In this document: one piece after another, positions 4,101 through 45,193 of the stretch
How positions within the stretch are numbered: position 1 is the stretch's first letter
How the letters are laid out: each line of letters starts with the position of its first letter
DNA from: Deuterostichococcus epilithicus
Lineage: Eukaryota > Chlorophyta > Trebouxiophyceae > Prasiolales > Stichococcaceae
Length of the DNA: 64,000 nt
Assembly: GCA_033439295.1 (NCBI GenBank)
Contig: JAVTLE010000018.1
Span: 620,001-684,000 of the forward strand
Direction: 5' to 3'
Program-made: the position numbers and the translations under genes
The notes under the pieces: model-generated
Databases searched by the model: none
The model's input: only the letters and a program-made list of their open reading frames with translations
Told to the model about the DNA's origin: nothing

Positions 4101-7100
4101 TTTGTTGACGATCGGACATCAGCTGGCCGGCATACCCCCTTCTAGATGTGCATGCAGCCTATGGGCAATGTTGGGTTGGCATTGGTGTATCTTGTCCAAG
4201 AGCTGGGTTGAAGAATGCGCGTGCGACTGAGTGCTGCGCTCCGCCCCGAGGCTTCAGGCTCTGCAACCCAGCTCGCCTGGCTGGACGCCCATGTGCATGC
4301 GTACAGCAATTCCTTCTGCAGGCTGCATGTTGACCCCCTCCATCTCCCTGCTACCTCTTGCAGCTTGGCGCATCAGCAGCACACGGCAAGCGGCGGCCGC
4401 GACTGGAGCTGGACTCAGCAGAGGCGGCAGCGCCAGACCCAGAGCCTGTGCTATCACCAGCACTGAAGGCTGCCAGGGAACGTGGCAAAGGTGGTGGCAA
4501 GCCCAAGCTGTACAGCAACAGCACTGGCGGAGGCCAGGCAGGCAGGCATAAGGGCAGCAGCAGCAGCAGCCAGAAGGGTGGCAGCAACAGCGGTACCAGC
4601 AAAACAGGCGGCCATGCCAGTGTCGGCAGTGGCCGTGCCAGCGGCGGCAGCGGCAGCGGCAGCCAGACCGGAAAGGCAGGCAGCGCACGGCAAAGGTCTC
4701 AGGGCAGCGGCAGACGGCTGCAGGCGGCAGGTGCCAGTGCAGGCACGGCGCGCAGTTCTAGCTACTCTGGCAAGCTGTGGCAGCTACGGCAGCAGGAAGC
4801 CGCCCGGCGCCGCAGCATGCAGCACGCCCTGGTACCTGTCGACAGCCTGCCAAACACACAAGACGAGTCGCAGCTAGGTGACAGCTCTGCACGCAAGACC
4901 CGTGAACAGCGCTTGCGGCGGCGGCGGCACTTCGAAGCTGCAATAGCTGAGGCCGGCGCACACATCAAGGGTTGGCAGCAGGGCAGCAGCAGCAAAGCTG
5001 GCGGCGGCAGCGGTGGCCAGGTAGCTGGGAGTCTGCCGGAGAACAGCCGCACAGCCAGCGGCGGCAACAGAGACGGCAGCAGCAGGCAGGTCCACGCTGA
5101 CGCCAAGGCTGCAGCTCCGGGCCAGGCCAGCATTGGCCACATGACGACGTCGGGCGACGGAGCTGGCGGCAGCAGGGGCGGCGGCGGCGGCGGCAGGGCC
5201 GCTGGACAGCGAAAGCAGCAGAATCTGAAAGCCGGCCTCAGCAGGTGCCTGGCAGTGCATGGCTCCTGACCTGTCGCCCAGAACAGCTGCTGCCCGGGTC
5301 TTGCCACACGACGTGCCTTGAAAGCTGAGGGCTTGGTGAGCGCAGTCTGCATGTGCCAGGCATGCTGCAGCTGTCCGTGTGATAGGAAGCCTACATCCTG
5401 ATGCGAAACCTCTGCCCTTCGGCTGCTTCCAGGCAGCGCGCCGGCGGCGCCGTGCTGCCGCCGCTGGGCCCGCCGGTGGTGCTGCACCCGTGCCTGCACG
5501 AGGGCTACAACGCGACGCACCGGCGGCTGGAGTCGCGCCTGCCGCGCGGCTCCCCGCCCGAGGTCCGCCTGCTCGGCAGGTGCGCGGCGCACGCTGACAG
5601 CACAAAGGCTTCAGCAGCACAGAGGCCTTGAGATACTACGTCCAGGTTGGACCTGGTATCCCCTACAGAGGCTGTTGGAGAGCATGCCACATGGCAGGCC
5701 ACATGCTCCAGCACTGCGGTCTGCCGGCGGCTGGATTGAAAGGTCTAGTGTGGCTGGGACTCGCCCCCAGGACGTATTGCATGCGCTGGTGGGGCAGCCT
5801 GCACCCTGGTGCCGCGTCAGTGCCGCTCTCGTTGCACTGGCGGTTCCTGTGGACGGCAGTCCCTGTGGGGTTGCGGCCCTTGCACCTCGAAGCACATGGC
5901 GCTGATCTTTGAGCCGACTGCGCCTCAGGCCGGACTGGGGCGCGTGCCAGGCGCTGGCGGGCGCTGTCGTGAATGCGAGCATTGGCCGGCCATGCCGTGC
6001 GCCGGCCTGCGCCCTGGGCGCGCCGCAGCCCGCTGCTGCCGGCGCCACGTTCTATGCGCTCACCGGTGCACCCCGCTGACGCAGTGCAGGGTTTGTAGGG
6101 TGTAAGGTTGAGTCGCCGCCGGAGCCAGCGTACGTATGAGTGTTGACGTGGCATGCTCGCGATGTCTCCCCCGTATCATCAACCGCATGGCATGTGCTCC
6201 TGTGCTTCGCGGGCGCCTGGCTGCTCTCTGCCCCACAGGCCCACCCCCTGGGGGGTAGGGTCTGAGTGATTAGACCGAGGGTCTCTCTGAGTAGCGGCCG
6301 CACACCACCGGGAGGCTCTTGAGAGCTGTGAGAGAGGGTACATGGCCGGATAGGGATGGACGCGACGCCCCTGGTAACCTCTTCCGTGCCACTCCCTGGC
6401 GCAGGCTTCCACGTGGTGTGGCACTTTTACCACCTGCAGCCCAGCGCGCCGCTAGCGGCGGTGGAGGCTGCGGCACGGGCCTGGTGCGACACGCCCTGGA
6501 GCGCCGTGCAGCATGGTGTGGGCCTGTCTGTGGATGCACTGGCCACCCTCTTTCAGGAAGTGTCGGTACATGAGAAGCGCCTGCCACCCTGTAGTGCGGG
6601 GACCCTGTGGCTGTGTGCAGTGCCCCGCACGGCGGCTCGCAGTGGGCTCCAGACTCCACGAAGTCTAGCATCATTTTTATGGGGTCCACCGGCTGCACGC
6701 GGCTCCGCGGCGTGCCTGACGGGTTCAGCTGCTGCTCTTGGGACAGGTCAACTTGCAAGAAGCTGCTTTCAATACGGGCTCCCGGCAGGGTTTGGCCGGG
6801 AGCCGCACCAGGACTCGTTCAGACGCTAGTCTTGGGGGCAACACAGATGGAAAAAGGAGTTCTTTTCTGACCTCTGCTTGTGGGGCACCGCAGAGCAGGG
6901 CACGGAATACCCAGAGCAGAGCAGGGAATATACCGCTTCTGGGGCGCAGTGCCGTGTTCCAAAGCTCCGAAGTGCAAGAGTCTTCTGTGTACTGTCCTAC
7001 TGAACACTGCTGACACCGCAGCGCCTTATTGTAATTGCAGAGCGGGGAGCGGAGCTACATGTGGACAAGTACTGCTTCCGGGCGCCGTATGTGTCGGCGC

Positions 7101-26280: not shown

Positions 26281-29200
26281 GATGACTTGCGTACAAGTTC
26301 AGGATAAGTTCAGGATAAGTTCAGGATAAGTTCAGGATAAGTTCAGGATAAGTTCACGCACAAGTTCAGGATAAGTTCAGGCTGATCGGCTGCCATCCTC
26401 AATTCACTCGAGATGCTGTGGGGCAATCCCGCCGGCTGGGGCCAGAATTTGCTGGAGAGCAAGCGGCAGGTCAGAGACAAGATTAACTCTCCGATGCGAA
26501 TCTACCTCTCGCTGCAGGGCGAGCTGTCGGCCGGGGAGCGGGACTCGTTGGAGAGCCTGCGGCCCGGCGTGCGCGCCGCACAGTCGCTGGGCGGCCCCGA
26601 TATCGGGCTGTGGCGCGCCTCACCGCCGCCACCGCCCTCCTCTGTCGCGGCGACGGCGGCCGCCCCGCCATCCTGGCAGGCATGCCTTCGTCTCGGTGAC
26701 ACTGTTTGGGCTCGCATAGTCAAGCCATACCATATGGACTCTGACTGTGGATTTACAGTGTGCCACGCTGACCAATGTCTGGCGCAAGGCTGCCGCTGCA
26801 GATGGAGCACCGGCAGGTACCCCAGTTGCATTGCGCACAGGTCTCCATCGTGTGGATTCCTGCACGTTGAAGTCTTTCAGGAGCTTACACAAGCCGAATC
26901 TCTGTGTTTCCAACCTGATGGCGCCCATGATGTGTCACGGTCGAGACCGTATCCGACATCGTCGATGTCAGCTTGATGAAATCACAGGACAAGCATCACC
27001 TTTTTCCGTGGACCTCTTTCTTGATTCGCAGCCTGTGCAGTGCGTTTCTTGTCAGCGTATCGATGGAGCGTGCTGTCGAGTGCCTTATCGCACACCTCCT
27101 GGGCAGGTGGCGCAAGACACATCTAGCGCAACCGCTGCGCCGGCAGGCGGCGGCGCGGCTGGCCCGGCCACCCACAAACCTGACGCAGGCGAGCAACAAC
27201 AGCACGAGCTGCTGTGTATGGCTCACCCTTCCCTATTGTCGAAATGCGCAATCTCCCTGGTCGTCGTTCAGCTGAAACGACAGAGCTTGCCTCAACAAGC
27301 CTCCCCGAGAAGCAGGCTGCAAGGGCTGCACACGCTGCATTGTGGTGTGCCTGCTCATACCAGTTTTACCCCCTGTCGGGTCTCTGCGATGGGTAAGATG
27401 TAAGCACTGTCCAGGAAGCCCGCTCGAGACGGCTCCGTCAACCCGCTCACAGCACGAATTCCATCGCGCAGGCAGCTCCCATGCGCCAGCATCCCTCGGA
27501 TCGGCTGACACAGCCCGAGCCACGTCCGCGCCACCGGCGGCTGCGGGACGCAACTCTGCCAACGGCGCCGGCGCCCACACTCCCACCAGCGACGAATGGC
27601 AGCGCGCGGCGCAGCAGTGGCGGTCGGACGCTGCCAAACCGGTGGCGGCGGCAGCAGGGGAAGCAACCGCGCAGGAAGCAGAGAGCGGCGCGGTGCCCCC
27701 GCACCCGCCGCCGGATGCGCTGACAGCGGTGCGCATCGCGTCAGAGGAACGCCGGCAGCTGGCGGCGGCCCGGGACGAGACGGCCGTGGCCGAGCCCTCA
27801 CGCAGCAGGTGCCTCCTCAAAACTCATTTACTCATGAGAAGTACAAGTCCGAATAGACAGCAAATAGGATCCGTGCAAGCATTTGGCAAAAGCCCTCTAG
27901 CAACTGCCCCTGGCTGCGTCACGAAGCAGGTCGTGGACAAAATACATGCCTTCAGACGATATGTTTCGATGGTGTTGATGGTTCGTCAAAATGACGCAGG
28001 GAGCTGCAGGGACTTGAGGAGCGCCCGTTGCGCCCGCCGCCGGTCCCGGGAAGCGGCCCTCAGGATAGCCTCCGGGCACCCACCACCCTTGCATCGCTGG
28101 ACCTCTTCCAGGTTCGGGTCTTCAGATTTTGAACATATGAATCTCCGCAAGGCTGTTAGACTCGTGCAACACTGCAGCAGAGGTGCCTTTGGGTAGCTGC
28201 CTGAGGCTCAAGGCGCAGGCAGCCAGGCCAGGCCAGCTGCTGGCAGTATCTATGAACTGGCAGGAGGGCGCAGGACGCCCTGTTTCAGTGTGCACCCCTG
28301 TTGTAAAAATGGAAATTTTGCCGCAGTCCTGCAGTGTGCACTCTCAGCCGGCTGTGTGATGGCGCTAAGCAGCCATGCGCTATATATACCCTTGACCGCC
28401 TGAGTGCAGCTAGTGCGTTGGGACTCAGCTCTTCTTGAAACGCGCCTGGCTGCCTCATGAAGCAGTTCTCCTTTGTTTGTCAGCAGCCCGCACATGCTGC
28501 AGGTCGCTGCAGCTGCTTGACAACACCTTGTGGAGGCCTTGCTCAAATGCCAGCGTCAACCATCATTCACCTGTGGAGCACCTATCAGCTTGCTGCAACA
28601 GCCAATCACAGTATCGACCTAAGAGTACAGACAATGCGAGTATGCCTTCAGAGCTCTACTGACGTAAAGCCTGCATGCGCTGCAGACGCGGCGGGCGCCG
28701 CAGCCGCTGACCCGCACATGGCTCCAGCTGCGCGCCTCGCCGGCAGGATCCACCCAAGACGAAATCCGCTCCGCGGCAGCTGGCCTCGGCTTGGCTCCGG
28801 CTGCTGCGGATCTGGTAACAGCCGGCCCGCCAGCAGCGGCAGTCGCGGCAGCGGGTGCCGCCGGCGCCGCCAGCGCACCTGGTGCAGCGTCGCCACCGGC
28901 GTCTCCGCTAGGGCCGCCGCAGCCGGGCAAGGGAGCGCCCTCGAAAACGGCAGCGCCCGACGCTGAGGCGCTGGCAGCAGCGCAGCAGCCGGGCGCGCCG
29001 GCCGCAGCGGTAGACGACATCTTTCACTCGGCGCCGCAGTCAGTTGCGACGCCGTCCTCATCCGTCCGCTCGCTGGCCAGTGCGTCACAGATGCTCGGAG
29101 ACACCGACAACGACTCCAGCAACGGCGTCGCCGCCAGGCTGCCTGCCACCACATCTGCAGCAGCAGCCGCCGGCCGGGGCAATGCTGCAGGGGACGAGGC

Positions 29201-32200
29201 AGCGCCAGCGCCCGAGACTACAGGCCAGCAGACGCAGGTGGCGCAGGCGGCGGAGGCGCAGTCGGCAGAGATGCCGCGGCACCCACTCGCGGGACTGCCA
29301 GTGGCACGCTCCTTTGAAATCACCGCTGCAGATCCGCGCGTCTCTGCCAATGCCGCTGCCGCAGACAGTCTTGCTGCCGCCGGTGTCGCTGTGTCTCACC
29401 ACGAGGCTACAGCGGCGCCGCCGCCGCCGCCTGACGCGACGGCCGCTGCGCTGTCGGCAGCGGCGGCGGCCACCGCGGGCGCAACGGCGGTTGCTGCGGG
29501 CGTGCCGGCGGCAGCAACAGAGACGCTGCCTGCCGCCTCAGTCATGCAGCAGCGTGCTGCTGTGGGGGCAGCAGAGCCAGCTGCGCAGCCGGCGGCGGTG
29601 GCAATGGCGCGTTCCGACGCGTCGCCGGGTGGGGCGCTGTCGACATACACAGACGCCGCGCTGCAGGATGCCGCCTCCGCCGCGGTCCCGGCACTTGCTG
29701 TGTCTGCGCCTTCGCCCGGCAACGCCGCTCACGAGGCAGAGCCGGCTGCGGCTGCTGGGCAGGTGAAATTCTCAGAGTTGCTATGTAGTTCAAGTTCACA
29801 AGGAACCAAATTCATGCAGTATAACATTGGTGTGTGCGCTGGCAAAGGCAGCGGTTGAACAGCGGGCAGCAGTGGAATGCAACTGCATGACCCTGGCGCT
29901 TTGATTGTCAAGTTTGCAGCGCCACAAAAGACGGGGCCAGGCCGGTCGCCGATTAGTCTTGGCTGCTTCACACAGCAGCGTGGCAAGGCGCATGTTGAAC
30001 TCTCCTTGACTACATCAAATTCACCATGCCAGATGTCTGACATCTGCTGCCTTTCCTTCTGCTGCCTGAGCCCAGGCTGTTCTGCTGGGGGATCCGGTCT
30101 GCGTCGGTGCTTTGCAACCTATCCCTTACGACTTACGGGGAACCCCATACGCACCTCTGCCTGGGCATTGGCAGTCGCTGTGCATGCAATGGGGTCCAGC
30201 GTTGCTGGGGGTGCCTCACGACAGTGCGCATACTTGGTGAGCAGGTGCCGGGCCCAGCGCCGATGGACACGACGGAGTCGGGCGATGCATCCAGTGAGGA
30301 CCAAGGCGGCGGGGGCGGCAGGCTGTCACCCGAGGAGCTCCGGCTCGAGTTTACAGCAGCCGAAGCCGCCAACCACGGCAGCGACGGCTGGAGCCTCATG
30401 GCGCCGGCAACGCAGGCAGCCGCGGCGCCGGGCATGGAAGCGCCGCAAGGCGCGGCGCTACCGCCGCCGCCAGCGGTGCCGGTGCGGCGCGAGGCAGCTG
30501 GCGCACGCCAAGTGCCAGCCGTCAAGACAGGCAGCAGGCAGCCGGCAGCGGCGGCCGCCCCTGCGCCGGCAGCCCTGCAGCGCAGTAACAAAGACGCTTT
30601 GGCTGTGGACACATTCCTCCGGGCACGGCCTGTGCTGCTGGCTCGACAGATGCCGCAGGAAGCAGCTGCTGCACCGCTGCGTGGCAGCATGCTGCAGGCC
30701 AGCAAGCAGGAGTCGGCTGCCGCGGTCGCGGCTGCAGCGCCCGCCGTGACGGTTGTGGGCATGGTGACGACGCCAGGCGCCGGCTCGTGCCATGTCCGAG
30801 ACGCCACTCAGGGCACGGCGGCAGGCTCCAGCACCGCTGCAACGACCAGCCCGGGCGCTGGCGCCTTGGGCGCTGGTGCGGGCGACCCAGCGGCAGGCAG
30901 CACCGGAGCGGCGGAGCCGACAGCCGGCGCTGCTGCAGCCGGGGCCGTAGCCGCCGGGCCGTCCACAGCCGCCGACATATGGGCCGAGGGGGGCGCTGCG
31001 GCAGGCGCGGCGGCGCCGCACAGCGGGTCAGGCAGCGGCAGGGGCGTCGCATTCGACGGCAGCGTACACGACCCTCTCGCTTCGGCCGCAAGCCTCGCTG
31101 CCGGCGCGAGCGCAGGCCCGCCCCCGCCCGTTACCGCCGCCCTCCAGCACAAGTGCGGTCTATTCTTTTGGGAGGTTTTGGGAGGAGAAAGAGCGGGGGA
31201 GAGTTGAGAGAGCCTACACCACCACGCAGCCTCAGTCTGATAATGCATAAAAGCAGCAAATGAAATGACTTATGCATCCTGATCGCCAATTGGTTGTGAA
31301 ACGAACACTAGCCGGAAACACTGATGAGGCCCATGAGTGCATGGCGGGGAGTGTGGTTCTCACAACTAAATGCAAAACCCTGCAGCGCTCCTTCAGTCTG
31401 TCGATTCCCTGCCAGCAATTCGACCCCTGTCCTGCAGCCCTGGATTCGCAGTCCAGCGTTTCCGCCGTCGCCACATGACATGATGGTGTGTGTGTGCAGG
31501 CGTGATGTGGCCAACAATGGTGAGCTGGCGCCGGCCCCCAAGCCAGCGCCCCATCCTTCGGCTGCTACCGTTCCGCCAGCGAATGCGGGTGCCGCTGCCG
31601 CTGTCATACCTGCCGCTGCCGAGGCTGTAGGGGCGGGCGGCGAAGCCGGTGCAGCCGGCAGTGCGGTGCGCAATGCGGCGCCTGCTGCTGTCAGCACAGC
31701 TGCAGAGCCGGGCGGCGGCGGAGGCGCTGGCCTAGCCAGCCGCGCCTCTGAGGAGTCGGCCTCTGCGGGCCGCGGGCGTGACAGCTCGCCCCACGCAAGT
31801 GACGGCGGGTTGCCGCGCTCGAGCGTCGGCGCCTTGCCTCGCGCGGGCGGCAGCGGCGGCTTCAAGAACAAAATTTCCAGCATCTTCGGCCGCCGCAAGG
31901 CTGCCGCAGCTGAGGAGGAACCCCTGGTGCGAAACCCCATGGAACATACAGCAGTCCGAGGCGACCTCACGAAAGCACTGACCTAGGCTTGACAAGTTCT
32001 AATATTGGCGACTGAAGGGTCGAGCGTCTCGCCAGCGAGGCTTCTCTTCATTGAATTGTGGCCGGCACTCTGCACGGATGTCCTGCGGGCCTAGGGCAGG
32101 GACCAGCTGGTCTTGCTCAGCTGGAAGGGCGAAAGACACTCGAATGCCACAGCTGCGGGCAGCCTTCACACGCTGCCTCCCCTTGCACAAAGACAATCGG

Positions 32201-35200
32201 CACATCCTTAGGGACAAGTTGTTTAAAGGCTGGCGGCGCAGAGCTTCGTGGCATGAATCGGGTTGCATCCCTTGATTCATGCCAGCGTCACCTAAATCTC
32301 CAACCCTGGCTTTTTCTCCAAACCCCGCAGGCGGACACCCTGGCAGCAGCGCAGGCAACGCACAATACCCGGGCGGAGGCGGGAGCTCAGACGCCCTTCT
32401 GGTGGCGCTCCCCAAGCACATCTGACGAAACCGCATCCTGGTGACGTCATCTGCAGCATAGACCCTGCAATAGGTTTATCGTTTTTCCTTCACCCGGCAG
32501 TCGGACGACCTGGCGGTGGCGCAGGCAGCGCACGACCGGGCGGCCGAGGATCTGCAGGAGCTGGCCTGCGCACATGCCGCCCTGGGCCACAAGGTGCAGA
32601 AACATATCGATTTGCCATATATGTTGATTGGGAAGTGTTGCATTGTCAGCGGGCTGGTGGTGTGTAGTGGTGCCGAGGGCTCGCATGTGAACGAAGCCCT
32701 GCTCGAGGCTTGGCGCACGCATTTCCTGGGCAAGGTGATGCTAGCACCACATCTCCTCACGCTCTTGCTGTCGTGTGGCTGCTCGACTAATGCGGCGCTG
32801 CGTTCGCCTGCGCGGGTACTTTGATGTGTCGCTGGACGTCTATGGATATGCGACACTTGGAGCTTGGCTCCTGCATTGTTTGTTAGGCAGCGCCTTCTGC
32901 GGCATGCCGCTGCATGACCGCTGCAGCCATTGTCTTTGCTGATGCCGTGCGTGACTGAGCAAAGGCCGAGGTTTCGGCGGTACAAGCTCCACTTTTCGCC
33001 TTCCTGCGCCTCGGGCGGGCTCCCACTGGTCTTATCGCTGTGAAGACATCGCAGCTCCAGCAGGCTGGTGGCAGTGCAGGAGCTGCGCCTCTGGTCAACG
33101 CCTTGGCATATGGACATCGTGGTCTGATATGCCAGCATCACTGTCAGAACCGTGAAACTGACCCCGGCAAACTCTTCTCTGCAGAACAAGCGCACAGACC
33201 GGGCTGAGGCGGATGCCGAGGCACGTCTGAACCGCCATAGGGCGCACCTCGAGGGCCTGAAGGCATGCAGCGCGCCGCCAGCCGGCGAGGCTGGGGCGCA
33301 GTTCGCCGGCGAGCCCGCAACGGCGGCCACTGGCCCAGAGACGGCGGCGGTGACGCCCGTTGCTGGCGCTTCAGCTGCCGGCGGCGTCGAGGAGGCTGCC
33401 GGCGCCGAGCCGGCTGCGCCCGGCCCGATCCTGTTGGCCGCCAAGGTCCTCTCAGGCACCGCCGCCGTCGCCGCTGCTCCTGGCACGGCCGAGCCGCTGC
33501 CGGTGGCGGCGCCCGAAGAGGGTCGGCAGGCTGCCAAGGGCCAGCAGCCACCTGCTGGCGAGGGGCTGAGCCGTGGCGGCGCTGCTGCCGCCGTCAGGCC
33601 TGGCGCTGTGCAGGCGACTGGCACCGCTGCAGGCTTCGTAGCCGCCCCAGAGCCTGCTGCAGCCCCTACTGCTATTGCACCAACCAGCTCGGCAGCCGCT
33701 GGGGCGCGTACCGGAGAGACTAATGCTGAGCTTCCGCCTCCGCCGCCGGCTACCGTGGCATTCATGGCCAGTGGCGGCAGTCTGCCACACGCCGCAGCCC
33801 GTGACACAGAAGCCTTGCCGGCCAAGACGCCGTTTGCGGCGCCGTCTGCAGACATGCCACCATTGCCTGAGGCCATCTCGACGCCTGCCAAGGTCGAACT
33901 GCCGCCAGCAGTTCAGCACTCAGCCGTCGACAAAATCAGCCCCAGGACCCCGGCAACCCCCGAGAATGCCGCTCGGCTGCCGCCCGCCGCGCCTACGGCA
34001 GACGCGGCCACTGCGGCGGCCCCCGCTGCCGCCCGCCTTATCGATGAGGCTGCCACCGGCAAGGTCATTCCCAGCAAGGCGCTTGCAGCGATGCCGGGGG
34101 GCGGTGCAGCGGCATTCGTAACCTCGGCACAGGATGAGCGGCCCCCGCCGCCGGCGCTGCCGCCGTTGCACGTACCTAGTCACATTGCGCCGCCCGAGCA
34201 TGGGCCGCCGCCGCACGATGCAGCCCTGCGGCAGCGCGGCTTTCATGGTGGGTTGCTTATGGAAGTCGTCCAAGGAGTTGTTTGTTCTGCACCATGAACG
34301 GGCTCTGTTGCTGGTGCATACATCTGCTTGGTGCTCATCATAGACTGCTTGCATTTCACCAGTTGATGCAACTGTATACTGCTGCAACTCCATCAAGATG
34401 CACTTGCTGAGCTACATTGCAGCCAACTGCAGCTGCACATGTCATGGTGCTGAGCAGAATTCTGGTGCATATACATCTGGTGTGATGCAGCGGGGCATGT
34501 GTCGCCGCGCTCCGCGCTTATGATGGACGTCTACACTGAGGAGGAGACGAGTCTCGACGATGAGCTGGACGTGCCAAGCCCGCTGGCCAGCCCCAGTACC
34601 TCGGGCAAGATGCACTTTCCACCTGCTGTGAATTCCTGGCTGTCATGTGCATGGGGGGTTTGTGCCTAGTTCCTGGGGGCGCTGGATCTTCGGTGCTCTG
34701 CTGGCCAGCCCTGCACCGCAGGCAAGCTGACATTTTAACTGAGCGTATCTTGAGCTGTCAGTGCCACGAACATTCAAGCTTTTGAGGAGGTTGCCAAATG
34801 CAATGCAGCAGCATCGCGTGCAGGAACTGTCACCCCTGCTGCGCTGCCAACTGCTGACCCTTGGATCGACGATGGTGGAAGGCTGACGCCCCATGATTGC
34901 TTCCCTCTTTCGTATTATTGACCCAACAGGCCTATCATCTGGCATTGCAGGGGCCGCTGGCAGCGCTGCCGATGGGTTGCCCCATGCATGCAGATGACTC
35001 GCCATTTTGTGTATTCACTTCCGCATTATGAATTGCGAGTCGGAGGAACATTGATTTGATACTGCAGGGTCGCTGGCGGCGCTGCCGACAAGTCGCACCA
35101 TGACGCCACGCGCGCAGCTGATGCGGCACCTGGCTCACATGGACATTGACTCGGGCCGCGTCGAGCCGCCACCGCGCTTCTTCCCGCTGCCCTTTGGGCC

Positions 35201-42333: not shown

Positions 42334-45193
42334 ATGCAACCGTTGATGGCTTTCAGTCGGCGCGGCAACTACCATCCGTCGTGGCAGCTCAGCCAGCCGG
42401 CGCAAACGCTTCCGTGCCGCCAGCGGCTGCGACATTGTACACCCATCTGCAGCTTGCAATCCCAGCTTAGGTCACCCACGGAGTGCGTCACCAGCCTCCA
42501 GCGTGCAGTCCCGCGGAACTGCTGTATCAGCAGGCAACGGCAGCCTGCGGCGGGAGCGCTCACGGCGGCGGCATCCAGGCCGCCGGCGCCGGAGCCCGGG
42601 CGGACTGTTACAAAGTCCGCCAGGCTGGCCGTGTTCGTCTCCGGCGGCGGCAGCAACCTGAAGGCGTTGCATGCGGCGACGCAGGACGGCCGAATCAATG
42701 GCAGCATCGTGGTGAGGGGCCGCATCCTTGCCGTGCTTTCACGGCTTCAGGGCTGCTCGCTGGCGAATACATGCTGGAGCGCTGGAGTGCTGCCGCATCA
42801 TGTCTGCAAGCTGCACCTTTGCAACCTCTAACAGCACATGGGCCTGCGAGCCGTTCGCCCGTTCCGAGGCAACAATACCGTCTGCACAAGCAATGCCGCC
42901 CGCACATGCAATGGTCGCAGATGCAGACCTTGCAGGTGCACAGCACGCAGCCAGGGCCCACAGGGCATCCCGTCATTTGAGCACCTAGTAATCATCCGGT
43001 TTTCCAATCCTCAGGCAGTGGTGGCGGACAACCCCGGCTGCGGCGGCTGGGGCTTTGCCGAGGAGCACGGCATGGCCACAATACAGTTCCCCACAAAGAA
43101 GCACCCGCCGGGGGCGCACGCGGTGGCGCTGGGGGAGCTGCCGGCGGCGCTGCAGGCTCTGGACATCGATTACATCTGCCTCGCCGGGTTCCTGAAGGTG
43201 GGGTCCTAGACAGAGGAAAAATGCCGAAGCCGAGGATGTCGTCCGTCAGGCAAGACTGCAGAGTGATAGTGCTGCAGACCCCTGGACGCCAATTATATCT
43301 GCCTCGCCAGCGTCCTGTAGGTGGGGTGGATGTCCAGTAGGCTTCACTCAACACGTGTCTTTTGAGGGACGAGTACATGGGCATCGGAGGTCGGTTGCAT
43401 TGGCCTCGCCAGTCTTCTGAATGTGGCAGTGTCAATTGGCTGTTTTAGCACATGGATGAGCTGCCGTCAGCGCTACAGGCACTGAATGTCAATCCAATCC
43501 ACATCTGCATCGCCAGCTTCCTGGAGGTGGGGGCCTTAAAGGTCACCCGAAATTGGTTCAGGTAGATCGCTGAGCTTTCCAGAGCCGGCACTAGTAAATG
43601 GTCTGGAGCTGGCGCAAGCATTCTGTGGCACGTCTTCGACACTTTCCCATCTCGAAATTCTCCACTCTGCACTCGATCTACTTAAGGAAAACCTTTTCTG
43701 CTGCAGCTCATCCCAGTGGAGCTGGTCAGAGCGTTTCAGCGGCGCATACTCAACATCCACCCCGCGCTGCTGCCGGCCTTTGGCGGTGCCGGCTTCTATG
43801 GCGCCCGGTGAGCCGCCAAGCACCTCTGTCTACTTAGAGACCTAGTTTTATGGGCTTTACCGTTATGAGTCGAGCGAGGGGTTGGCAGCAGTTTCACCGT
43901 AACTCTGTGCCAGAAGGGGTCCGGCTCGTGCTGTGGAGTGCCAGTCTGGAGGATTTCATGCATTTGCCTGACTTACCAGCGCCTGCACGACTGATCCCGC
44001 AGCAGCACACATCATGACTGCGGACATGGGACCCAATCCCATCCCGTTCGCCCTGCTCCCTGCGGACGCACAAGTGCCCAAGCGCGCGCCCCGACAACCA
44101 CACGCCGTGGCACGACGCCTGACGGCTTCGAGCACGTGCGCGCCACAGGACTGACCCTTCTGCACAATCCAGAAATCTGCAGAAACCGCACCCACCCNCC
44201 CCCCGTGTGCGCAGGGTGCACAAGGCGGTGGTGGCGTCGGGGGCGCGCTTCACAGGGCCTACCATCCACTTCATCGACGAGGGCTACGACACGGGCCCCA
44301 TCCTGGCGCAGCGCGTCGTGCGGGTGTCGCCGACGGACACCCCGGAGCAGGTCGCCGCCCGCGTGCTTGTGGAGGTGTGCCCTCTAAGCTCAGAGCTTAA
44401 CGCTTATCTCTTGCGAGATTCACATTCACGTAGTGGCGCAGGGCGGGTGATGCAGTCGATGGCTACCCCGGAGCGGGTTGCCGCCCGCGTATAGAGGAGG
44501 CCCTCTACAAGGCGTTGCCCTCAATGTCCCGATGTGAAAGTTTGGAGGAAAACTTTGACAGTAATCAGCGGCGCAGCGCGTGGTGTGAGTGCCGCCCACA
44601 GATGCCCCGAAGCTAGTCGCCGCCCGCATCGCTGGCCGAGGTGCGCCCCTGGAGACTGTGAATGGCAGTTGTGAGACACCGATTGGAAGAGGAATGTCCT
44701 AGCGCCGTGCTAGTCGACACGCGGCCACCCTGGGCAGACAGCTGCCTGTATACATGCCGAGGCGCGCCGTGAAGAAGGCGGCAGCGAATGTGGCACATGA
44801 GGGTCTTCCTTGCCGCTGAGAGTGCGACAAGGAGGCCATGCTGTTGCACATCGGTGCAGATGCCCGGCGTTTGCATCCACGCGTCGCAGCTGCTACTCAC
44901 ACTGTAGGTTTTGCTGTTGGCGCTGAATGACTTGTTACTAAGTCTGTGGCTATGACACCAGGCATGACCGGGGCATGGCGCCGGTGGGGCAGGACGTTGG
45001 GTCACACTGCAGGTTTCCTGCTGCGTCAATGGTCCTTGCAGCACAGAAGCGGCCTTCATCTTGTGATGAAGAGTACTTGTCGCTTATTGCACCACAGGAG
45101 CACAAGGTGTACCCTGAGGCAGTGGCGGCGCTGTGCGACGGCCGTGTGACGTGGCGGGAAGACGGCGTGCCCATCATTTGGGAGGCCTACTGA
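42334..45193 (+). CDS. purN: Phosphoribosylglycinamide formyltransferase (PurN-type GART), probably plastid-targeted
   Basis: The enzyme transfers a formyl group from 10-formyltetrahydrofolate to GAR in de novo purine synthesis. Exons 42334-42711, 43015-43197, 43707-43807, 44215-44374 and 45098-45193 join in phase, giving 305 residues. About 90 N-terminal residues rich in Ser, Arg and Ala look like a plastid leader. The PurN core follows: LAVFVSGGGSNLKALHAA, VVADNPGCGGW, IDYICLAGFLK, RRILNIHPALLPAFGG, IHFIDEGYDTGPIL, and the end VTWREDGVPIIWEAY. The catalytic Asn, His (NIHP) and Asp (FIDEGYDTGP) are present. Introns 2 and 4 carry several degenerate copies of the preceding exon end. This is the most securely identified gene of the window. 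Confidence 0.95.
43271..43532 (+). repeat. Three degenerate copies of the GART exon 2 end within intron 2
   Basis: The true exon end reads CTCTGGACATCGATTACATC and GCCTCGCCGGGTTCCTGAAG, then GTGGGG. Copies are at 43271-43325 (GCCTCGCCAGCGTCCTGTAG then GTGGGG), about 43381-43430 (GCCTCGCCAGTCTTCTGAAT then GTGG) and 43451-43532 (ATCGCCAGCTTCCTGGAGGT, preceded by GAGCTGCCGTCAGCGCTACA as in the exon). The copies contain stops or frame changes and cannot serve as exons. Confidence 0.85.
44456..44652 (+). repeat. Two degenerate copies of the GART exon 4 end within intron 4
   Basis: The exon end ACCCCGGAGCAGGTCGCCGC followed by CCGCGTGCTTGTGGAG is echoed at 44456-44500 (ACCCCGGAGCGGGTTGCCGC then CCGCGTATAGAGGAG) and again at about 44600-44652 (GCCCCGAAGCTAGTCGCCGC then CCGCATCGCTGGCCGAGGTG). 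Confidence 0.8.

Follow-up and report, generated by a model that had tools for sequence, protein, structure and literature searches.

Decayed copies of exon edges in the introns of a GART gene and of a 314-kb genome sample: probable relics of local duplications across splice sites

Predicted introns in two contigs of one genome contain decayed copies of the edges of the exons that adjoin them. Such a copy was detected in 48 of 435 introns, 21 on the donor side, where the end of the upstream exon recurs within the intron, and 28 on the acceptor side, where the start of the downstream exon recurs, one intron having both; the corresponding chance expectations, obtained from length-matched introns of other genes, are 0.65 and 0.25. 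The copies are homologous to the neighbouring exon edge, lie in direct orientation and at a local offset from it, are in register with the splice site, occur at both ends of introns, bear no mark of coding constraint and are concentrated in long introns. They are most probably the relics of old local direct duplications, with units of about 75-185 bp that straddled a splice site.

The GART gene and the copies in its introns 2 and 4

The window, meaning the whole 64-kb stretch of DNA analyzed (positions 620001-684000 of contig C16, in a genome of 46.8 Mb and 21 contigs), includes a gene for phosphoribosylglycinamide formyltransferase (PurN/GART), which has five exons on the forward strand. Its product scores 162.3 bits against the NCBIfam model TIGR00639 (PurN), for which the cut-off is 150.1, and matches PDB entry 4ds3 with an E-value of 1.9e-37; Pfam Formyl_trans_N is matched by one of three single slices of the window, that of exon 3 alone. 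A search of the assembly with GART gave five matches among the best candidates scored, all of them the gene's own exons. The homology-supported part of exon 1 extends over 42619-42711, with a donor gtgagg at 42712. Exon 2 (43015-43197), exon 3 (43707-43807), exon 4 (44215-44374) and exon 5, stop codon included (45098-45193), follow. Intron 2 (43198-43706, 509 bp, donor GTGGGG) and intron 4 (44375-45097, 723 bp, donor GTGTGC) were delimited both by eye and by the gene finder, with the same limits.

The initial annotation had described three decayed direct copies of the preceding exon end in intron 2 and two in intron 4, and a repeat search combined with a gapped comparison confirmed all five. 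The source of the intron 2 copies is the last 70-80 bp of exon 2. The first of them (43271-43327) corresponds to the exon end (43149-43197) plus seven intron bases, with a decoy donor at 43321; the second (43386-43426) is the most decayed and has GTGGCA at 43423; the third (43453-43536) takes in a longer portion of the exon end (43130-43197) plus ten intron bases, with a decoy donor GTGGGG at 43527. The intron 4 copies have their source in the last 70 bp of exon 4. The first (44434-44505) has no GT at the donor place, and the second (44570-44648) corresponds to the exon end (44305-44374) plus eight intron bases, with a decoy donor GTGCGC at 44641. Each of the five copies scores higher than all of the 2000 stretches drawn from other introns (p = 0.0005 in every case, the lowest value that so many draws allow). 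The six further comparisons of exon edges with introns in GART remained at chance level (p 0.17-0.69, 500 draws each), and the edges of exon 3 were without copies in the search. A possible third and very decayed copy of the exon 4 edge was noticed at 44702-44768 in intron 4, with a weak p of 0.02 that is uncorrected for multiple tests.

The donor-like GTG first reported after the copies is present in four of the five, the first copy of intron 4 being the one that lacks it. Under a donor model, three GART decoys score near the real donors (4.71 and 5.33 against 5.78, and 6.98 against 6.18), and that of the second intron 4 copy is among the decoys that equal or exceed the real site. Stops, also reported at first, were judged by eye and occur in the first intron 2 copy, where CTG TAG stands before the decoy donor, and in the second intron 4 copy, which has a TGA in the exon frame; the third intron 2 copy is open in that frame and does not conform. 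The suggestion that divergence grows with distance from the exon did not hold, as the outermost copy scores highest in both introns (40.4 against 33.5 and 19.0 in intron 2, and 43.5 against 30.5 in intron 4).

The spacing of the intron 2 copies is fairly regular, at 123, 102 and 104 bp. All three have GCCAG where exon 2 has GCCGG, in the codon for a glycine shared with the bacterial enzyme 4ds3. This common GCCAG suggests, on the strength of few sites, that the copies probably descend from one another or from a common decayed copy, and not each from the exon.

Frequency, register and spacing of the copies

The survey took in 314 kb of the genome, made up of 264 kb of C16 (the window with its flanking 100 kb in each direction) and 50 kb of C1, on which an HMM gene finder built for this analysis was trained. 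The gene models are predictions, in which neighbouring genes are sometimes merged and some exons are tiny; they replace those of an earlier version of the gene finder, in which most genes were merged and many exons were tiny. Counting only predicted genes whose coding sequence reaches 300 bp, there were 534 introns, and the removal of 99 that adjoined exons shorter than 30 bp left 435. The last 80 bp of the upstream exon, or the first 80 bp of the downstream exon, served as the query against the intron body, and a Smith-Waterman score of at least 18 was taken as a match.

This comparison of introns with their flanking exons against a control, which the initial annotation had proposed, thus yielded on 314 kb a large excess over chance. 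Reverse-complement queries gave one match on the donor side and none on the acceptor side among the same 435 introns, and the reversed exon end gave one. The exon end matched the next-but-one intron in 0 of 362 comparisons and the intron upstream of the same exon in 2 of 362, with 0.3 expected, and 1079 comparisons of exon edges with introns of their own gene that do not adjoin them produced 0 and 1 matches. Copy-bearing introns number 18 of 137, 5 of 70 (the window) and 15 of 142 in the three stretches of C16, and 10 of 86 in C1. Within the window, acceptor-side copies of an exon start are found in predicted forward-strand introns at 2218-2604 (lag 103), 31927-32500 (lag 170) and 34596-35067 (lag 116).

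A whole-exon query with a threshold of 19 gave 36 and 38 matches. The controls, which comprised roughly three times the number of comparisons, gave 20 and 31, so that chance matches are admitted at this threshold. Later analyses used a threshold of at least 21 (27 donor and 32 acceptor matches). Simple self-scans returned 35 direct against 1 inverted repeats in the first 78 kb and, in a second scan, 171 repeats against 0 in one Markov-shuffled copy, these being counts in which exon-intron pairs are not told apart from other repeats.

The similarity between copy and exon is in register with the splice site (26 donor-side and 31 acceptor-side matches). In the 20 exon bases beside the splice site identity amounts to about 0.63-0.73, and it reaches background by about +10 in donors and about -30 in acceptors, counted into the intron. 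With the whole-exon query most of the better blocks, not all, span the splice site, and it is mostly the exon edge alone that is copied. The offset between copy and exon is 75-183 bp in 43 of 49 cases and 205-372 bp in the other six. In the four introns examined for one, with offsets of 205, 265, 266 and 323 bp, an intermediate copy is visible (by repeat search in GART, and by eye in two others); the remaining two offsets are 345 and 372 bp. The 100-175 bp bins hold 15 of the 27 donor matches, against 7.2 expected, and 23 of the 31 binned acceptor matches, against 8.7 expected, if unit sizes are taken as uniform between 40 and 400 bp and one of the 32 acceptor matches, whose offset exceeds 400 bp, is left out. 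Below 200 bp, donor-side offsets are longer than acceptor-side ones (medians 150 and 117 bp; Mann-Whitney p = 0.017). The 100-175 bp peak is seen in exon-intron pairs and hardly at all in intron-intron pairs, a point that tells against duplication, although old pairs of the latter kind would be hard to detect.

Introns with copies have a median length of 450 bp, compared to 262 bp for those without. The share of introns with a copy is 5 of 248 below 300 bp, 8 of 97 between 300 and 400 bp and 35 of 90 at 400 bp or more, and the length-matched permutation covers the chance matches which arise from the greater room in long introns. An intron of 262 bp to which one unit of about 130 bp is added comes to roughly 400 bp. 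Given this concentration, with chance accounted for and a single unit sufficing to reach about 400 bp, it is probable that a large proportion of the long introns grew in this way. The proposal in the initial annotation that duplication across a splice site may be a route of intron lengthening is well supported.

Several individual loci deserve description. On the minus strand at C16:601279-601688 (L010:1279-1688), a donor-side array comprises two copies within the intron, with lags near 167 and 330; its spacers look partly homologous, and over 76 bp its first copy shares 91% identity with the exon. One predicted intron at C16:728873-729503 (L016:4873-5503) holds copies of both flanking exons, with a lag of 139 on the donor side and of 266 on the acceptor side, where an intermediate copy is seen by eye. 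The clearest full-unit tandem duplication is an acceptor-side array on the minus strand of C1 (L024, about 5121-5670), consisting of two intronic units and the exon, with AT-rich spacers that look homologous by eye. A candidate for a newly gained intron, of 113 bp at about C16 560,800, was dropped since its upstream exon is a doubtful predicted start. The same 113-bp intron, with an offset of 110, is the exception among the 49 rows; in the other 48 the intron exceeds the offset by 70 bp or more. A tandem array with a period of 154 bp and about four to five copies, roughly 75-83% alike, lies in predicted intronic sequence at C16:574865-575531 (L007:4865-5531), and the window has at 26295-26381 a tandem array of the 11-mer AAGTTCAGGAT (7.8 copies, 92%). 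Elsewhere in the genome, on the 3.1 Mb contig C11 (1636278-1639424, L027), a RuBisCO small subunit gene is apparently split by an intron of about 0.6 kb; the presence of this gene agrees with a green algal source of the DNA.

Duplication across splice sites and alternative readings

On the donor side, a unit composed of the exon end, the donor and the intron start would be duplicated head-to-tail; the first donor would stay in use, and the second exon end with its donor would be left inside an intron that is now longer by one unit. On the acceptor side, the intron end, the AG and the exon start would be duplicated, the last acceptor would be used, and the first copy would be stranded in the intron. 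Splicing would in both cases keep to the site beside the intact exon body, such that the protein is unchanged, and the stranded copy, no longer coding, would drift while the true exon is held by selection. Repeated duplication at one site may produce arrays such as those of GART introns 2 and 4. A duplication that straddles the splice site is expected to give copies on both sides, direct orientation, register, non-coding drift and longer introns, all of which are observed. We infer that the mutation was a tandem duplication, although spacer homology can be seen in only a few arrays, that the outer site continued in use and that the copies are neutral. The local tandem duplication put forward in the initial annotation is well supported, and its restriction to the 5' splice site is not, as copies occur on the acceptor side (28 in the 435 introns) as well as on the donor side (21). 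The intron-border sliding that was suggested alongside it found no sign in this one genome.

The length of the exon part fits simulated tandem duplication when each unit is required to include at least 50 bp of intron (KS p 0.45 for 18 donor matches, 0.10 for 26 acceptor matches), and fits poorly when it is not (0.08 and 0.003). The better fit may be due to the need of an acceptor-side unit to bring its own branch point and pyrimidine tract. A strict upper limit on the exon part, suspected from the best matches, was weakened under the 50-bp condition. The mutational source may be break repair with fill-in, or a process at the scale of nucleosomes or Okazaki fragments.

The intronic flanks are the part of the evidence which fits duplication poorly. 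Where exon and copy are 80-90% alike, the flanks should still be recognizable and mostly are not; over 48 of 49 rows the mean flank score is 11.7, compared to 9.6 when permuted and 32.8 under an initial, simple simulation. When matched for identity and length, the intronic extent lies at a mean percentile of 0.21 and the flank score at 0.24, with 0.5 expected and a standard error of 0.044, in the 43 of 59 matches that had matched simulations and offsets within 70-200. Similarity ends at most 25 bp from the donor in 18 of 19 observed cases, as against 34% in a plain uniform-age simulation over the same identity range. Assuming greater age alone moves the simulated ends close to the observed ones, at the cost of lower identity. 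Agreement with neutral simulation is restored if the intron rate is 1.5-2 times that of the copies.

An unlikely alternative is that, instead of a whole unit being duplicated in tandem, only the exon edge with a few bases of splice signal (about 40-90 bp) was duplicated and placed 100-180 bp from its source, for instance through templated repair or a different process anchored to the splice site. The early fall of similarity to background within the intron, at about 10 bp in donors and 30 bp in acceptors, is as this reading would have it, and so is flanking homology far under simulation. Against it, the spacers look homologous by eye in two arrays, the flank scores do exceed the permuted ones, and the regular spacing in GART intron 2 is hard to obtain from independent insertions; the discrepancy with simulation, moreover, disappears with old age and an intron rate faster by the factor given above. 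The excess divergence of the flanks could reflect conversion of the copy by the exon, a weak constraint that acts on the copies, a mixture with insertions of the edge alone, or a decay model that is too simple. A past burst of duplication was also considered, as young matches are few (identity of at least 0.93 in 1 of 19, compared to 17% simulated), and the identity distribution alone does not prove one. A broader proposal, which for now appears doubtful, would combine a lineage-specific duplication process having a ruler of about 100-175 bp (the scale of nucleosomes or Okazaki fragments) with filtering by splicing, such that a large share of the long introns was built and the stranded edges evolve more slowly than the surrounding intron, through exon-to-copy gene conversion or a weak role in splicing.

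It is very unlikely that the copies are functional, whether as alternative or poison exons or as decoy splice sites under selection. They do appear better conserved than the intron sequence beside them, the decoy equals or outscores the real site in 5 of 27 donor and 7 of 31 acceptor copies, an AG lies within 3 bases of its expected place in 22 of 31 acceptor copies, and the third copy of GART intron 2 is still open. Their mismatch rates by codon position, however, are flat (0.179, 0.183 and 0.219; p = 0.13), 35 of their 39 indels are not multiples of three, only four being so, and six stops are present in 726 codons, which together speak against the copies as coding exons; the synonymous share of single changes is 0.337, with 0.288 expected at random. 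The retention of the copies as splice sites likewise found no support: compared strictly on the diagonal, 14 of 26 donor copies retain the GT and 15 of 31 acceptor copies the AG, rates that do not exceed those of the neighbouring exon dinucleotides (0.51 in both cases), and these signals have worn away along with the remainder of the copy. When a shift of up to 3 bases is allowed, only 16 of 27 donor copies retain a GT.

Mobile introner-like elements, or dispersed repeats that resemble exon edges by chance, form a third alternative. Some green algae are known to have introners. In the whole genome the end of exon 2 together with intron 2, the one intron tested, matches only itself, and matches of exon edges to introns other than the adjacent one are very rare, which leaves this reading scarcely credible. 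Equally remote is chance similarity or an artefact of gene prediction: the models do come from an HMM trained on the same DNA, with merged neighbouring genes and some tiny exons, but the strand, permutation and same-gene controls are near expectation and the GART exons are backed by protein homology.

Significance and relation to known systems

Intron growth that transposons do not obviously explain is difficult to trace, since duplications within introns are quickly erased beyond recognition. A constrained exon offers a fixed reference which keeps half of the duplication legible, and may thus provide both a clock and a counter for intron lengthening. The copies also supply natural pairs of real and decoy splice sites, mostly 100-175 bp apart, for questions of splice-site choice. 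Tandem duplication across an exon-intron boundary has already been published for a single case of intron gain. Among the open-access matches listed, as represented by their titles and the beginnings of their abstracts, none describes decayed exon edges as something that many introns share.

In tandem exon duplication, including that which gives rise to mutually exclusive exons, whole exons lie within an intron and both splice sites and the reading frame are kept. The introns described here share with such cases the presence of duplicated exon sequence, and differ in that mostly the edge alone is copied, decays and shows no codon constraint. A plausible mutational source is offered by the repair of breaks by CST-Pol alpha-primase, for which PMC8355091 describes small tandem duplications, with insertions below 100 bp and breaks with 43-bp overhangs. 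These duplications are likewise direct, local and head-to-tail, whereas the units in the present introns peak at 100-175 bp and have breakpoints too old to read. The potato RdRp gene (PMC4974935) provides a single case of intron gain by a local tandem duplication that crosses an intron-exon boundary. Exon and intron are both touched by local tandem duplication there as well as here; in potato a new intron resulted, whereas the present copies would have lengthened an existing intron and decayed inside it. In Drosophila, novel intron positions have arisen by sliding or by tandem duplication, the latter probably accounting for 5 of 31 positions (PMC2891723). That work, like the present one, is concerned with regional tandem duplication of exon sequence and compares introns with their neighbouring exons; its cases are few and concern new positions, whereas here about one intron in nine (48 of 435) carries a relic.
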